Origin: Opisthocomus hoazin
Taxonomy: Eukaryota; Chordata; Aves; Opisthocomiformes; Opisthocomidae
DNA length: 64,000 nucleotides
Direction: 5' to 3'
Assembly: GCF_030867145.1 (NCBI RefSeq)
Contig: NC_134436.1
Location: forward strand, 4,588,001-4,652,000
Shown here: in pieces, positions 30,112-58,200 of the stretch
Layout: every line of letters starts with the position of its first letter
How positions within the stretch are numbered: the first letter of the stretch is position 1
Position numbers and translations under genes: made by a program
The notes under the pieces: model-generated
Seen by the model: only the letters and a program-made list of their open reading frames with translations
Told to the model about the DNA's origin: nothing
Database searches by the model: none

Positions 30112-33100
30112 ATGTCAGACCAGAACAGCACCGACGATGGGGAGTCAGACCCCCAGCACAGCCTGTCTATGGTCTTCCTCCTCGTCCTCGTCTTCTTCAT
30201 CATGGGGCTGGTGGGTTTCCTGATCTGCCATGTCCTGAAGAAGAAGGGTTACCGGTGCCGGACCTTCCGGGACGAGCTCGACCCAGATAACAAAGACGTG
30301 CTGGCGGAGCTCCAGGCCAGTGAGTGCTGGGGCGATAGGGGCTCAGTGGGGGTTCGGGTGCTGCCTTTCACCAGCATGGACCAATACTCCTTAAACATGC
30401 TTCTGGGACACAGGCTGAGGCTGGGAGGGTTACCCATCACATACCACTGGGCTGGAAAAAAGAGATGAGGCAGTGAGAGCAGCACTGTGTTCCCCAGGGA
30501 TCGGGAGTTTACAACCCCAAGAGACCTCTAATCTGCTGGCTCTGCAGGCTGGCGAAGGCTAGTGGTGCCAGGGAGGTGGGAATCAGCATCTGGCCCTTCC
30601 CAGAGTAGTGTTATCACCAAAAGTAATTCTGATGAACACCCAGGACCTGCTGAGCTCTGGTCCTTTGGTGTTAGGAGGTCTGGCATGGGGCCAGCATAGT
30701 GTTTGCTAAATGTCATGTCCTCTTCTAGTCCCTGTTATGCTCATGCAGCCCAGAGGGACAGGAGTGCTTGCTTGAGATCTCTGCCCCACACTGGAAAGGG
30801 ACCTCTAGAGTTTTTCCATCGCTTCAGGCCATCATAAGCAGCTCTTTGATAGCAGGGTTGGGAAATCACTGCAGCGTTGAACGTGGGTGTAAGCCAGAGC
30901 TCAGTCCATGCAAGCTCTGTCGTTTGGTGGTGTCATCGGTCTCTGCTGAAATAGAGAAGACACATTCCTCCAGCTGCTTTCTTGCTTGAAAACAGCCAAA
31001 TGGTGCTACACAACTCCTCTGGCTCCTCTGTGCCACCGTCAGTGCTCAGGAGGATCAGCACCTCCCACTGCCACTTCTCATGCACGGGAGAAAAACGTGG
31101 CTGCCTCAGCTTGCCCACAGATGCAGTGGGAGCTTCCAGTCATCCTTGGATATGCTCCTCTTGCTTCAGTGACTTGGCTGTACATGACATGGAGACAGTG
31201 TCTGAACCTTTCAGGATTGGCTTTACCTGCTGGAGTTGCCACAGCTCAGGAAAACATCTCTGTGGGCTTCCAGGAGCACAGCAGCAGCCCCTGACCATGC
31301 TCTTTGAGGCAACTGTCTACCAGACCATAACTCTGACCTGCTCACAGGGATGTATAACTGCAGACTCGGCTGCAGGTCCAGCCACCCAAGCCTCCTGCAT
31401 CCAACAGTGGCCAGAAGCAGGTTGTGATGAACGCTGGGGATGAATACCACAATGGAGCAGACACCAAGCCAAGTTTCCCCAGCACACTTTTATGAGCTTC
31501 TAACAGTGTGTAGCTCCGGGGCTTTCTCCATCAGAGATGGTTTCTCTGTATTTAGCAGGCCCCAGTGGGTTTCTTTTCTGTGAACTTGTCCCATTTACCC
31601 TTAAGGACTTTTAGCACCTGCAGCATCCTCCACCCAGGGGCTCCAGGGCTGGACTGTCCCCAGGATTACCCTCCTCTTTCAACTTGTTTCGAACCTGCTT
31701 CACACTCGTTTCACGTGATGCTCCCTAGGAGCCACACAACCCCCCTCTCCCTGCACCTATGGATGCCATTTGAGCCATTTCTTTTCCAGAGTAAGGGATC
31801 TGGTGTTCCCCAGGGGCTTCCTGGTGTGATGTGGGACACAAGGCTTCTCTGACCTCTCTGTCGATGTGGCTGCTCCTGGGGAGGGACTGGCGAGCTAAGT
31901 ATCTGAATCCCAGCCCTCAGTTCCACGTTTTTTCTTTTCAGATGAAGAGGAGGAGCTGAATGAGGACACTGTGGAGAAGATAGTGAGATGCATCATCCAA
32001 AATGAAGGTGAGCATTTCCTAGGGCTGGCCCAGAGACTTGCTGACCGCTTTGGCTGACACATTCCCTTTTTCCTCTTTCTTCAGCAAATGCGGAAGCCCT
32101 CAAGGAGATGCTGGGGGACAATGAAGGGGACATCCCATTGCCAGTGCCCAGGTGAGGGAAGCCTATTCCAGCTTGTGGCTTCTGGAGAGTAAGGGAGAAG
32201 CCTCTGAGTATCACCTTGGCCTGCACACTCTGCAGCCAGCCCCTTTCTGGCTTGTTATAAAGCATCTTCCCAACAAGAAGTCCTGCTCCCCCAGGGGTTG
32301 CAATGAGTACTTCACACCACTGTCCTCATTCCTGTCCTCACAGGAGGTCCTCTCCAGAGCTGCTGCTTCTCAGGACTTGCTACAGCGAGGCTGCACCAAG
32401 GTTGGGAAATCTCCTCCAGCTAACAAGTCCTGTCATGTCCTTCTATTGCAGCCTTTGTCCTCATCGTAACAGCCAGGATGGTGGCCCACCACACCACCAC
32501 ACAGTGCATTTGGGCTCCACACAGGCCCCCTGCATCCACTGCAGCAAGAGGAAGAGGCACCCACTGCATCGACAAGGACGGTCCAAGGATGGCAAAGGCA
32601 GGATGCATCCTGGAGAGACAACTGTCTTCTCAGTGGGCAGGTACTTAAAAAAGCCTTGCCAGACATGGCCTATCTGCTCTGATGGACCTAGCATCACAGA
32701 GAGTCTCCTCAGTTCCCCTATTCCTCTCCCCTTCCCCACTTGCCAGACACCAGGCACCCTCTTGCTCTTCTCCATTTAGATGCCCCAGTAGTAGCTCTGC
32801 AGCTGGGAGTCCCGAATACACAGGTGCCTCCTGCACCTGGAAATGCCTGTGGTATGTGGCAGGCCATGACGCACCAGTGGCTTCCCTCCTCCTTCTCTGG
32901 GAAGGTGATTCAAGCCTGGGCTGTCTTGCTGACGAAGTGCTGGGCAGAGCCCCAAATCCACGTCCTTTCAAAGCCTGTTGTCCCAGCTATGTGTGAGCAG
33001 GGCTCTTGCTGTGCAACAAGGGCAGTGACCCCAGTTTTAGGGATCTTATTAGGAGGGGGAGGAGGTGACAGCAGGTCCCAGGTACAAGTTCACAGCCACC

Positions 33101-40849: not shown

Positions 40850-46176
<5,327 letters not shown>

Positions 46177-46482
46177 CGCTGCGCTCCCCCGGGCACCGGT
46201 CCCGGTCCCGGTCCCGGTCCCCGCCACCGCCCCACGCGTCTGCGGAGCCCGGAACTGCCGTGACCAGCTCCGCCCCGCCCTCCGCGTGGCCCCGCCCCCT
46301 CCCGGGAGACCCGCCCCGGCAAGCACCGCCCCTAGGCCCGCCCCCTGTCCCAGGCAGGCCGCCCCTCGCGTCGGTTAAGCCACGCCCACCACGCCGGGCA
46401 AGCCACGCCCCCCCTCAGGGCCCCTTGCGCCGCCCAGCGGTGGGTGCTGCACGTCCGCCGGAGCGCTGGGAGAGGCGGACGT

Positions 46483-46970
46483 GGGGACATGGGGACAACA
46501 GGGACAGAGGGACGCGGGGACATGGGGACACAGACAGACGGGGAGATGGGGACGCAGGGAAACAGGGACACTGGAACACGGGGACACGGTGGGACAGGGA
46601 CATGGGGAGATGGGGACACGGGGACACAGGAAGATGGGGAGACAGGGATGTGGGGACATGGGGAAACGGTGAGATGGGGACATGGGGAGGGCTGGGGCCT
46701 GTGTCCTGGGCAGGGGGACATGGGGAGTGCTGGGGCATGGGGACACCGGGAGCGCTGGGGCCGAGTCCTTGTTTGTAGGGACACACAGAGCACTGGTTGT
46801 GGGAAGTGGTGACACGTGGGGTGCTGGAGCACTGGTTCTGGGACACAGAGAGATGTGGGACACTGGGGCACTGGTCCTGGGGTACGAGGACCTGTGGGGC
46901 ACTGGGGCCTCAGCCCCGAGGCACAGGGACATGTGGGGTCCCATGTCACATGGAAGGCACACGGTGACCC
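46483..46970. repeat. GGGGACAY minisatellite
   Basis: From 46483 to about 46690 the plus strand is a dense array of GGGGACA-type 8-9 bp units (GGGGACATG, GGGGACACA, GGGAGATG). It then becomes sparser, with larger units such as GGGGACAYNGGGAGYGCTGGGGC, until about 46970. It lies 0.3 kb outside the FCHSD1 first exon. Confidence 0.9.
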
Positions 46971-47977
46971 TGGACAGCTTGGCAGGACCCTGCTGTGGGG
47001 ACACGGGTTCGGTGCTGAGCAGTGGCATTTGGTGTGGGGCACCATGAGGGCTCCCCAGCCAGCCCTTGTCCCGTCTGTCCCCCAGCCACTCTGTCCCTCT
47101 ACCTTCCCCCTCCCACCCCCTTCAGCTCTCACTTCTCCTTCAGTCCTGTTTTTCCTCTGTCTGTCGTTCCTGCAGATCTCGTGGCTCTCCCTGCTGTCCC
47201 TTTTGTCCCCTTCCTGACCTCTCCCTGACATTTTTGGGGTCCGTTGCGCTTGTCCTGGTTCCCCTGCTGCGTGCTGACGCGCAGGGCTGGGCTGGGGCTG
47301 TGTCCCTGGGTCAGTTATTTCCCTCCACGGCCCCTTTGCTGCAGGAGGCAGCTGGGAAAATGGACCGGGGGCCACCCAGCACCCACTTGGCTGGCAGGAA
47401 GGGGATGGCAAAGTGGGACAATGCAGGGTGGCCCCATCAACAGGGTGGCATCGGCTGGTCAGCCCAACCGAGGTGATTGATGCCTGGGGATGTCTGGCCC
47501 TGGCAGGGCTGGCAGGCAGGGTGCCCTGTGCCCCCGGGGTGCTGCACCGGGGCAGGGGCACACGTCACCCGGCCAGGAGCCAGCTGCCTCCTTCCTGCCC
47601 CACAACTGGGGCACGTAAAGCTCCGCCTGATCTCTGCGGTTCGCAGCTGTCTTTCGACGGCTGCCTTGTGTCTGCTTCCTCCTCCTCGCAGCAAGCCGTT
47701 GCGTGCCGGCGGGCTGGAAACCACCCCAGTCTCCGTGACGTCCCCCGGGTGCTCGGCAGCGGCGGCAACTGGTGGTCATCTTGCGCTCCCCGCCTCCTGT
47801 CTGGCAGCTTGGACCACGGGGACGTGGGCAGCCCCCGGGCGCGACGAGGAGGAGAAAGAGGAAGGGTGCCAGCTGGGAGGGGGCTGGTGCCCGTCCTGCC
47901 ACGGTGACACACAGCGGGGCCAGCCCTGCCTGTGGCATTTGTGCAGACCCAGCTTGTGCAGAGGCCACTCTGCAGAG
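46971..47977. other. upstream region of the PAR-like receptor gene
   Basis: No coding exon was recognised. It presumably contains the receptor promoter and any 5'UTR, but no clear TATA box or CpG island is visible. Confidence 0.45.
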
Positions 47978-50151
47978 ATGTCCCAGCCAACGCCTTCACT
48001 CAGCTCCGCTGCTGCCTGTGTCACCATCCTGCTCAGCTGCGCCTGGCTCTGCTCGGCCGCCCAATTGTCCCCAAGTAAGTGCCTTGTTGGGTCTGGGGGG
48101 TGATGGGCAGGGCAGGGAGGCCTCGCTGGGACACTCCAACATTGTGTCCCCTGATACTTGGAGGGAATAGCTGGGTGTCACGGTGAAAGCTCAGGGCACT
48201 GCTCTGCTGCCTTGCCTGGGTTTCCGTGTTGAAGATCTAAGTGAAGACCTGAAACCCTGCCACTCCTTCCCCTTTAGGCAGCAAAAGTCATGTTACTGCT
48301 CTTGTAATCTGAATTTCCCCTGTTCCCTGGATGTGGAGAGGTGGCAGAGGTTGTGGGAAACTGGTTGGATGTACCTGGGGCCCCCAAGGGCCCGATGTCC
48401 TGGGGACCACCTGAATGGAGCTTTTGGAGCCTGGGGGTGACGTGCAGGGAGCAGAGCCTGGCTGTGTTTTTTTTGCGCAAGCCAGGAAAGGGATTTGATG
48501 GGATGTTGTTTCCCTGGTGTCCTGGGACCTTCCTGTTCTTCACTTCTGTTCTGAGCACACAGTGAAAAGCCTTGAACCACAGGAAGATGGGGAGGTGTGT
48601 GCAGCCCCAGCCGCAGTGGGGGGCCAAGCCGGTGGACTGGCTGGGAGAAGGAGGAGGCAGGAGCCCTGGTGGGAGAACATCTCCTCTCCTGGTGTGGGTG
48701 GCCATATCCCGACCCTGTCCTGGCACCAGTTTCCCATCTTCCCTTTTGATCCTGTTGGGTTACAGGGGACCCGTTGCACTAGGCTCAGTAGGAAGAAGAT
48801 GTTGGCAGAGCTGTGTGTCCCTGCAGCAGGGCATGGGAGCAGAGCCTGCCTGGGCTGTGGGCAGGGTGCCTGGCTGGGCTGGCACCGCCGTGGTGCCGGC
48901 ACCGGATGAGCAGTGCCAACAGCGCAGGACGTGGCGTGGCTCTGCATGGTGAGGGTAGCAGGATGTGGAGGGCTCCCATTCCCTGAGCTGTCCCTGCTGT
49001 GGGGCAGGGAGACGCCAGCTCCTACATTTGCTGAGAGGGGTGACATCTCATGTGTGGTCCAGAGTGGGAATGGTCAGTGGCAGGGGGCTCTCAGATGAGC
49101 CTGATGCTTTTTGTCCTCCACAGTGCGTAACAAAGGGCGAGTCTTGATCCCCCTCAACCCCCAAGAAGAAGTCACATGTCCCAGTGCCTCCGTGGAAGCT
49201 TTTCTCAACAGCACCCTCACCACCCGCCTCCTCCCTGCCCTCTATTCTGTGGTCCTGCTTGTGGGGCTGCCAGCCAATGCTCTGGCCTGCTGGGTCCTGG
49301 TAACAAACTTCAGGAGATGTTCCAGCACCCTCTTCCTGCTCAACCTGGCCAGCGCTGACCTGCTCTTCGTCCTTCTGCTGCCCTTCAAGATCTCCTACCA
49401 CCTCTTGGGCAATCACTGGCTCTTTGGGGACTACCTGTGTCGCACCATGGTGGCCTTTTTCTACGGGAACATGTACAGCTCCATCCTCTTCCTCACCTGC
49501 ATCGGCCTGGAGCGCTACATCTCTGTGGTGCATCCATTCCTGTGGAAAGGCTCCAGCTGGACACGGGGCAAGGCGGGTGTCTGTGTGGGCATCTGGTTGG
49601 TGGTGGGGCTGGGCATGAGCCCTCTGCTCTTGCAGACCCAGACAAGTCACATCTCAAGCCTGAACATCACAACATGCCATGATGTCATCCCACGAAAGGA
49701 TGAGCACGTGTTCTTCATCTACTATTTCCTTTCCCTGGTGGGGCTGGGCTTTGGCTTGCCCTTCGTGCTTATGATCATATCTTACAGCTGCATCCTGGCA
49801 CGGCTGCTGGCTGAGGGGAGACGCTACGGGCAGGTGGTGCGTGTCCTGGTCCTGGTCCTCCTTGTCTTCATCCTCTGCTTCACCCCCAGCAATGTACTGC
49901 TCTTCATCCACTACATGCTGGAGGCCACGGGGTGCCACAACGTCACTTACATCAGGTACACCCTGGCCCTGGCGCTTGGTGCCTTCAACAACTGCTTCGA
50001 TCCCTTTGTCTACTTCTACATCTCCCAGGATTTTCGGAGGTGGATCCGGGGTGCAGGCAGCTGCTGCCTGGGTGGTGTCAAGACCTTGACGGGGAGGACC
50101 TCAGAGAAGGCAGCCTTGCCCCTGAAGTCCAGTCAGCAGGACCAGCTGTAG
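47978..50151 (+). CDS. Proteinase-activated receptor 2-like GPCR, 2 exons, 374 aa
   Basis: Class A GPCR of the protease-activated receptor (PAR) family, switched on when a protease exposes a tethered ligand. Exon 47978-48074 encodes a signal peptide (hydrophobic VTILLSCAWLCSAA) and exon 49124-50151 the rest. The joined frame is 1,125 nt. The two-exon plan with a separate signal exon is the PAR family plan. Visible are the likely cleavage site NKGR/VLIPLN (after R38, like SKGR/SLIGKV of PAR2) followed by acidic PQEE, seven membrane segments, C138-C217 disulphide cysteines, LERY at the end of TM3 (161-164), the PAR hallmark NITTCHDV in loop 2, DPFVYFYISQDFRR after TM7 (closest to PAR2), and palmitoylation candidates CC346-347. 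N61, N213 and N305 are possible glycosylation sites. I know of no PAR gene here in mammals. Orthology is unassigned, so no symbol is given. Confidence 0.9.
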
Positions 50152-50425: not shown

Positions 50426-50438
50426 AATAAACTTTATT
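50426..50438. terminator. palindromic bidirectional poly(A) signal
   Basis: AATAAACTTTATT reads AATAAA on both strands. It serves the PAR-like gene (275 bp after its stop) and is available to ARAP3 coming from the other side. Confidence 0.75.
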
Positions 50439-55200: not shown

Positions 55201-58200
55201 TGGTGATGGTGTCCCATGGAGCTGGGGCTGCTGCTCTCCTGGGGAGGAGCCTCAAGATGATGGGCAAAGGGGAGACAAGTGTGGGGGAAGGTCCTTCCCC
55301 AAATTTCTGCTGTGGGACAGCGGAAACCCAGGGTGGGCAGCTGGGAGTGTCCCCAACCTCCAGGCTCTCCCACCAGCCCAGGGTCCTTGATGTGGTGGAG
55401 GCTGGCAAACACATCCTTAGTACCTGAGTGTCCTTCCAGGTGGTGATCAGACTGTTCTCCAGATCCATCTGCGATACCTGGTCCTCGTCAATCTGCCAGA
55501 TAAAGGGCACATGGGGTGAAAGGGGAGACACATGGTGTCAACGTGGACAGCAATATGGCTTGAGGACACATGGCCAGGACAGAGGCATGCAAGAGGAGGT
55601 GGAGGTGGGCAGTATTGAGGGGAGATACAAAGTGAGATGGACAGAGACGTTGCGGAGGGGGGTGGCAAGGCCCTTGCAGGGATCTTACGTTGAAGACGTT
55701 GACATAGTTGTCAATGAGGTCTTCCATCACCTTGACCTCGTGCTCCCCTTTGCCATCAGTCTGGAAGAGGCTGGGTGCGAAAAGCAGTGACAGGTTCTTG
55801 GTGCTCATCTGGTTGAGGTCTGCACATTTCTGCACCCTGGGGCAAGGAGCACAGGGGTGAGGGGCTGGCCCCGCTGTGGGTGGGGTTTCAGCCCCAGCCA
55901 CCCTCCTCTGCCTCATACAAACTCACCTGAAAAACAGCCCGTTTTTACCCTGCTCCCCAACTCCCCAGGAGGGGGAACTTGAAGCCAGGCAGTTCCTGTT
56001 TCCAGGACTTCCAGCTGCCACCAAACCAGACAACAGCCCGCCCCCCCCCCCTTCCCGTCATGCTCTGAGTCAGGGATGGGAATTTGTTTTGTTCCCTCAT
56101 TTTTGGGCACTGGTGAAGTTTACATCCTTTGAGGGTGTGTCACCTACTCCTGGACATCCTCCCAGTCTCTCCTGCTGCAGAATGGCTTTGGGAATATTTG
56201 AGGTGTCCCAGAGCAATGTCCTCTAGCACACCCCAGCACTGAACTGGGGGGCTGGTGGGGCAGGGCACAGGCACTGGGCTTTTCCTGGCTTGCAGTGATG
56301 GGACACAGCATTCCCTGCATGGTGGGGAGACCCCATGCTTCTGGCTGGCTGTGGGGACTCTGGCTGGACCAGGGAACCCTGCAGGAAGGTGGCCCACTGA
56401 CCGGTAGAGGTGCCCGATGAGCGCAGCCAGGGTCTTGTGGTTGAGGCGAGGCAGGCGATGAATGAGCTCCTTGTACCGCTCCAGGCGCTGGGGCTTTGAG
56501 GAGATTTCTGGAGGAAGTAAAATGTGTCATGGACCATTGCTGAGTCTGGTGGACACGGAGCTGACATGGCACCAGGGCTGGGACCAAAACCCTGTCCCAA
56601 GGGACATCGACCCCAAGGGGGCCCTGGCAGGCGTCCCAGTGTGGGAGAAGGGGTTGGGTGAAGGAGGTACCTGCAGCCTCCTTCCACTGTGGGTGCAGCT
56701 CCAGAGTGAAGACAGGGTCCTCCAGCTCACGGAAGAACCTCTTCAGCACATCAGTGACATCCTCAATGAAGTTGTCGTTGATGCGCAGCTTGACGTTGCG
56801 GGCGTCCCGCCGAAACTCCTCCATCAGTACCTTGATCCGGGACTTGGCTCCGTTCTTGCGGTAAATCCCTTCATGCCGCAGCCCTGGGGCAGGGACATAG
56901 GGTCGTGGGGGCTCAATCCTGCCCTGAGAGACCCCAGTGGGGCTGGTGCCCCAAGAGTGGTGCCTCTTGCCCAGACCCCTGGCTGCTATGTGTGTGCCAG
57001 AGGATGCTCCAGCTTTGCTGCTGCAATGCTGGGCTCACCATACTGTGTGATGAAAGCAATACAGCTGTCCACGATGATGGGGATGTCCCCCCGGCTCAGC
57101 TGCTGGTCCCGTAGTGCATTACCCCGGCCCCCCGCTGATGCCTGGATGTCGGCGTACCATGCTGCCGAGTCTGCTCGCGACAAGCCCTGCAGGTAAAATG
57201 TCCTGAGAACGACAAGGGCAGAGAAGAGGGAATGAAGGTTGCCTAGGGGAGGCGGGTTATTCCCTCCTGCCCATAAACAGAGCCTGCCTCGGGGACAGGG
57301 AGTAAGGCACAGCCAGACAGAGCCGGGGGACATCCTACCCCAGTGAGAGACCCCTGGCTGGGGTGACCTGTGTAAGCCCCTTGGCCACAGCCCTGCTGTC
57401 CTAGTAGCATCCCCACCAAGGGTTTGGGATCACCCACGCTTGAGTGCCTTCGCCCCGGGCAGCCTGCTGAGGTTGCTTGGCTCATTCCCTCAGCCAGGAC
57501 TCACCTCCCCATCTCCACCAGGATCAGCAGCTCCTTCTTCTCTGGGGTGTCCGTGGGGGGAACCAGACCTGCATTGGGGTAAGAAGTAGAGAGGTCAGAG
57601 CCATGCACGGTCACCCACCACATGCTGCCTGTCCTGGGCTGCGGCAGGGCACTCACTGAGCTCCTGCAGCCGTCGGAGGTTAATGCTGTCCTCAGCCCCA
57701 TCATCCTCGGTGGGACAGATGAAGAGGTGAGCTTTCTGCAGGATGAAGAAGGCCTGCTGCCACTGCTCGGGGTTGAGCATGCACTTGTAGCGCAGCTGGC
57801 CCACGCGCTGGAACTCGTAGCCAAGCAGGCAATGACAGCTCACAGGCGTGAACCACTGCGGGATGGAGCAAAAGATGAGCCAGGTAAAGACAGGGCTTGG
57901 CCCCCAAACACAGACCCTCATGAGGATGGGGGCAGGTTGCCAGGGTGGATGGGAGCCCCTGCAAAAGGAAGGAGGGTGCTTGCCACAGAGAGAGAAGAAT
58001 GTTGGTAGCTGGGAGGAATCACAACAGGGAAACAGGGACAGAGCCCAGGGACCCACCAGCAGCATGGGGTGCCAGGGCTGGGGCTGGCTCACCTTGCCAA
58101 TGGCATTGGCCCAGGCTTGCAACGTCTCAGGCCCATCGGTTCCCAGCTGCTGCACTTTTTCCCCAGTGAGGAAGAGCTCGAGTGTGAAGCGAAACCTGCA

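Follow-up and report, generated by a model that had tools for sequence, protein, structure and literature searches.

A fifth protease-activated receptor gene beside ARAP3 in the hoazin, most probably the avian F2RL4

Introduction

Most of the biology of protease-activated receptors (PARs) comes from mammals and their four receptors. In the hoazin (Opisthocomus hoazin), the stretch of 64,000 nucleotides analysed here (NC_134436.1, positions 4,588,001 to 4,652,000; the window) carries a gene of this kind, hereafter the target, between an FCHSD-type gene and ARAP3. Human FCHSD1 and ARAP3 adjoin at 5q31, and no PAR gene is known to lie between them. This raises the question of whether the target is a displaced copy of one of the known receptors or a further member of the family.

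A survey of animal genomes published in Sci Rep in 2019 describes a clade near F2RL3, made up of one amphibian and five birds and named F2RL4, which it lists among the receptor clades without a human orthologue; F2RL3 itself is given as locally duplicated in gar and coelacanth (PMC6504862). The survey's account of F2RL4 runs to one sentence, which contains no locus, structure or activation site. For zebrafish, one account of the PAR genes reports the lack of PAR4 and the presence of unnamed PAR paralogues near par2a/b (PMC3408399), and another counts 27 PAR-like genes (PMC2793433). In our literature search the name F2RL4 appeared in PMC6504862 only, and searches on PARs in chicken or birds, thrombocytes, synteny, FCHSD1/ARAP3 and genome duplication listed nothing on the target besides that survey.

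Results

Gene structure and coding integrity

The target has the architecture of a PAR gene, with a signal-like exon and a single 7TM exon separated by a phase-1 intron (Table 1). A first-pass annotation of the window had reported an intact signal-peptide exon followed by a 7TM exon, and its coordinates proved exact, with a GT-AG splice between the two. It had also pointed to the motifs NKGR/VLIPLN, CHDV and DPFVYFY, all of which we found in the target protein. In all four PAR paralogues of the same genome, an AG resembling an acceptor stands in the same phase ahead of exon 2, according to our own reading of the exon 2 side only.

Table 1 Features of the target gene and its neighbourhood, in window positions
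Feature	Position	Strand	Description and basis
Whole gene	47978-50151	+	Opisthocomus hoazin NC_134436.1, two exons, 374 aa
Coding exon 1	47978..48074	+	Contains the start codon; encodes a signal-peptide-like segment (MSQPTPSLSSAAACVTILLSCAWLCSAAQLSP and the first base of the codon after it); sequence, splice model
Phase-1 intron	48075..49123	+	Donor A/GTAAGT, acceptor CCACAG/T
Coding exon 2, including stop	49124..50151	+	Activation segment at the N-terminus, then 7TM domain and cytoplasmic tail
NKGR/VLIPLN (residues 35-44), candidate for protease site and tethered ligand	49129..49158	+	Read from sequence; post-signal position as in paralogues
CHDV, extracellular loop 2	49675..49686	+	NIT glycosylation sequon just before; alignment with PAR1-4 and P2RY8
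GRRYG, short third intracellular loop	49816..49830	+	Common to PAR4; alignment, PDB match
DPFVYFY, end of TM7	49999..50019	+	Sequence, alignment
Poly(A)-signal-like hexamers, one per strand	50426..50438	.	AATAAACTTTATT; between target and convergent ARAP3; sequence match only
ARAP3 RhoGAP exon (flanking gene)	56663..56914	-	Best match human ARAP3 structure 5jd0, E 6.6e-25
SH3 exon of FCHSD-type gene, taken as FCHSD1	41448..41633	-	SH3 matches to FCHSD2 structures
RELT-family exon of a flanking gene taken as RELL2	30169..30276	+	Sequence match; fits RELL2

The hydrophobic stretch of the signal-like segment comprises residues 10-28, as delimited by a hydropathy scan and judged by hydrophobicity only. 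The seven helices were assigned from the match to Pfam 7tm_1, which covers profile positions 2-260 (E 7.2e-49); the crude hydropathy scan flagged five of the seven expected helices in addition to the signal segment. The ERY and DPFVY motifs are retained, and three N-glycosylation sequons are located at residues 61, 213 and 305. An AlphaFold single-sequence model of exon 2 was uninformative on the fold (pLDDT 41.6, pTM 0.24).

The reading frame is intact. Its length is weak evidence in this GC-rich window: in 7 of 200 Markov-simulated windows the longest frame from stop to stop reached 348 codons or more. Homology is decisive for the gene. A phmmer search of the PDB with the target retrieved human PAR4 (E 3.1e-68, 234 bits) and PAR2 (E 7.9e-66, 226 bits), followed in the bit ranking by PAR1 (194) and P2RY8 (176).

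Genomic neighbourhood

The target lies between the FCHSD-type gene and ARAP3, on the strand opposite to both, in agreement with its earlier placement between FCHSD1 and ARAP3. ARAP3 was recognised by its match to 5jd0, and ArfGap and RhoGAP exons occupy the minus strand at 51-61 kb of the window. The FCHSD-type gene was recognised by its SH3 matches and is taken as FCHSD1 rather than FCHSD2 on the basis of its neighbours. Downstream of the target, AATAAA occurs at 50426 and TTTATT, its equivalent on the other strand, at 50433. Repetitive-looking open reading frames at 46375-47050, between the FCHSD-type gene and the receptor, suggest a GC-rich minisatellite.

ARAP-like RhoGAP exons and RELT-family exons also occur elsewhere in the genome, on C1 at 3.02 and 4.56 Mb and on C5 at 26.03 and 26.6 Mb, respectively. 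The block that holds the target is thus one of several related blocks (G000:C1:3.02-4.66 Mb and C5:26.0-26.6 Mb), of which only that on C1 was noted to contain P2Y-like receptors. These two genes (L024 and L025, at 4.62-4.66 Mb) are situated 57 and 97 kb from the RELT-family exon, with the ARAP-like exon 1.5 Mb away on the same contig; by their human neighbourhood the two are taken to be P2RY2/P2RY6-like. The related blocks suggest, though they do not prove, an old origin of the target at its present locus.

The PAR genes of the hoazin

Searching the whole genome at the protein level with the target gave at least 109 matches at E ≤ 1e-8 (118 of 238 candidates scored), 20 of which were read as proteins (L009-L028). 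Among the matches listed, the top five are the target and four PAR-like genes, and the sixth is P2RY8. The best match after the target is a gene on C27 (290.8 bits, 44%), followed by three loci on C41 (256, 220 and 204 bits) and the P2RY8-like gene (183 bits).

The three C41 loci are clustered at 63.39-63.48 Mb. One was read as F2R, with 501 bits against human PAR1, another as F2RL1, with the site SKGR/SFAGQK and a 100/100 join with human PAR2, and the third as F2RL2 (K/TFRGIS), a name based on its ligand-like motif and its position in the cluster. The C27 gene (L010, G000:C27:4043497-4044429, minus strand) has human PAR4 as its best match, at 324 bits against 234 for the target, and SIN3-type exons, of either SIN3A or SIN3B, are found 13-14 kb away. 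The neighbour of human F2RL3 is SIN3B, and the C27 gene fits the F2RL3 of the hoazin. The place of the F2RL3 orthologue at the SIN3-type locus is occupied by this gene and not by the target. The sixth match (L014) is P2RY8, at 503 bits; its open reading frame begins at its own methionine, and in our reading no signal exon was seen.

Since the next four best matches read as F2RL3, F2RL1, F2RL2 and F2R, the target is an extra, fifth PAR, and it is the one PAR gene beyond the four among the 20 matches read of at least 109.

Two further observations were made during the search. A fragment at G000:C7:634394-634708, inside an open frame of 221 aa and ranked below the 20 matches read, is 41% identical to target residues 34-136. 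Three loci chosen by guess as a potential PAR cluster (L029-L031) played no part in the analysis. Two 7TM matches of equal score and length, L001 and L002 (G000:C41:67159759-67160793 and 67175252-67176286), lie 15 kb apart and may represent a recent duplication or an assembly copy.

Candidate activation site

Between the signal-like segment and TM1, arginine or lysine occurs at residues 34, 36 and 38, besides one arginine at the start of TM1. A cut after Arg38 would expose VLIPLN, at the place where the paralogues of the same genome have SFVLSS, SFAGQK (F2RL1), TFRGIS (F2RL2) and AIPGEK (F2RL3); Arg34 and Lys36 are alternative candidates. The P1' residue is thus valine in the target as opposed to Ser, Ser, Thr and Ala in the four paralogues. 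The first-pass annotation called this candidate ligand unusual; tethered ligands are reported to vary among PARs, the peptide SLVVIQ being active on zebrafish thrombocytes (PMC2793433), and GYPGQV and AYPGKF are described as PAR4 agonist peptides (PMC5855795). The candidate site of the hoazin's own F2RL3, CPR/AIPGEK, has Ala-Ile where the PAR4 peptide GYPGQV has Gly-Tyr.

The KGR site of the target has no proline at P2, and the acidic stretch for thrombin's exosite is nearly absent, with a single pair of acidic residues after the candidate site. This makes trypsin, tryptase or a TMPRSS-type protease likelier than thrombin, and the activator would accordingly be of the trypsin type rather than the thrombin type.

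From its sequence we infer the following for the expression, cleavage, ligand, protease and coupling of the receptor. In cells that express it, the signal peptide would be removed, and a trypsin-like serine protease would then cut the short N-terminus after Arg38. The new N-terminus could fold back on extracellular loop 2, at CHDV, and on the top of the helices, which would switch on G-protein signalling, probably through Gq, a coupling known for other PARs.

Loop motifs and phylogenetic placement

In the alignment, the loop-2 motif reads CHDV in the target; CHD is found in all seven other PAR rows and CFD in both P2RY8 rows. G(R/K)RY occurs in the third intracellular loop of the target, human PAR4 and the hoazin F2RL3 (three of three rows); the other seven rows lack it. 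In the target this loop is shorter than that of PAR2 by six columns, and that of F2RL2 is short too.

Two trees were calculated, one with 16 rows (the target, the four other PARs of the hoazin, its P2RY8, six of its outgroup receptors and four human PDB chains) and one with 24 rows (295 columns). The vertebrate sequences in them came from the hoazin genome and from PDB chains. PAR3 entered with a single divergent row, and the composition of human PAR4 was marked as odd in both trees. The target joined the pair of hoazin F2RL3 and human PAR4 at 89/89 (16 rows) and 91/91 (24 rows), neither join being starred. The pair itself was starred, at 100/99 and 100/98, with the target outside it.

AU tests rejected the target as partner of hoazin F2RL3 alone (p 0.002 with 16 rows, 0.006 with 24 rows) and, with 16 rows, of PAR1 (p 0.013) and P2RY8 (p 0.020). 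A position as sister to F2RL2 (PAR3) was not rejected (p 0.13 with 16 rows, 0.074 with 24 rows). P2RY8 was placed among the PARs in both trees, and a grouping of the PARs without it had p 0.55 (24 rows); the clade that holds the target consists of the PARs and P2RY8.

Alternative origins

The target could be a duplicate of PAR2 (F2RL1) that was relocated to its present locus, a reading we regard as improbable. Its KGR/xLI resembles the SKGR/SFAGQK frame of the hoazin's own PAR2, PAR2 comes next after PAR4 among the PDB hits (226 against 234 bits), and placing the target as sister to the PAR2 pair is not rejected with 24 rows (p 0.076). However, the same placement is rejected with 16 rows (p 0.021), as is, at p 3e-11, a partnership with hoazin F2RL1 alone; the third loop is shorter than that of PAR2, and a separate F2RL1 gene is present in the C41 cluster. 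The tree tests have weakened this reading without closing it. It is more improbable still that the F2RL3 (PAR4) orthologue changed its locus in birds and is itself the target. Although PAR4 tops its PDB hits and its third loop is PAR4-like, the C27 gene is closer to human PAR4, lies near the SIN3-type exons and pairs with human PAR4, and the AU test rejects the target as sole partner of human PAR4 (p 0.003, 16 rows). The score, locus and pairing of the C27 gene largely refute this origin.

The C1 block, with L024 and L025 close to its RELT-family exon and an ARAP-like exon on the same contig, gives some ground for deriving the target from a P2RY2/P2RY6 ohnologue that became PAR-like by convergence. 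We find this barely credible: the target has a PAR-type gene structure and CHDV, and its grouping with L024 and L025 is refuted by the sequences (p 9e-58, 24 rows). Unlikely, yet the least so of these alternatives, is a PAR descendant that has given up proteolytic signalling and now acts as a cofactor, the role ascribed to PAR3, or as a receptor for a soluble ligand. The P1' valine and a proline at ligand position 4 set the target apart from its four paralogues, and P2RY8, for which no signal exon was seen, sits among the PARs in the 24-row tree; against this, the target has kept a signal-like exon, an arginine site in the expected place, CHDV, ERY and DPFVY.

Altogether, the trees and AU tests support a lineage separate from the F2RL1 and F2RL3 orthologues and make PAR4/F2RL3 the likely, though not the proven, closest kin of the target. 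The separate PAR lineage proposed in the first-pass annotation is thereby borne out, the target being distinct from the F2R, F2RL1, F2RL2 and F2RL3 found elsewhere in the same genome. The protein phylogeny, which that annotation had named as a check, places it outside both the F2RL1 pair and the F2RL3 pair. The annotation's label "PAR2-like" lacks support, as both trees join the target to PAR4/F2RL3 (unstarred) and the pairing with hoazin F2RL1 alone is rejected.

Discussion

Our analysis leads us to regard the target, with considerable confidence, as an intact fifth PAR gene that is sister to F2RL3 (PAR4) and corresponds most probably to the F2RL4 clade as its orthologue in birds. The identification with the published F2RL4 follows from the presence of one extra PAR in the genome and from its placement next to F2RL3, and is on these grounds most probable. 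The separate lineage has been in print since 2019 as F2RL4, and the advance is therefore modest: what is added here is the location, the gene structure and the candidate activation site NKGR/VLIPLN. That mammals lack F2RL4 at the FCHSD1-ARAP3 site is suggested by its place in the survey among clades that have no human orthologue (PMC6504862). It also agrees with the human locus, where no PAR gene is known between the two genes.

A wider history can be put forward tentatively. The fifth PAR might date back to the vertebrate genome duplications, with birds and amphibians retaining it and mammals having lost it, within a RELT-FCHSD-ARAP block whose sister copy contains P2Y receptors; the body of the receptor would be like that of PAR4, and its trypsin-type switch like that of PAR2. 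If this is true, bird cells carry a protease sensor that is absent from mammals. If birds do have a fifth, PAR4-related receptor, findings on protease sensing in thrombocytes, epithelia and inflammation could not be transferred directly from mice and humans. Now that a locus can be named for it, together with a peptide that may activate it, the almost unstudied F2RL4 becomes easy to test.

Among the known receptors, F2RL3/PAR4 is nearest to the target in sequence and shares with it G(R/K)RY in a third loop of short length, a similar tail and a phase-1 acceptor ahead of the activation segment. In contrast to the target, F2RL3 is located at another locus, by a SIN3-type gene, and its candidate site in the hoazin is CPR/AIPGEK, whereas the target has kept LNITTCHDV in loop 2, as in PAR1 and PAR2. 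The resemblance to F2RL1/PAR2 lies mainly in the candidate cleavage site, where KGR is followed by x-L-I (human SLIGKV), and in LNITTCHDV; F2RL1 differs in its locus and in a third loop that is six columns longer, and neither tree groups the target with PAR2. The F2RL4 clade, as outlined in the survey, is a PAR lineage near but outside F2RL3, and the hoazin likewise has one extra PAR-like gene among the 20 matches read, placed near F2RL3 by an unstarred join.
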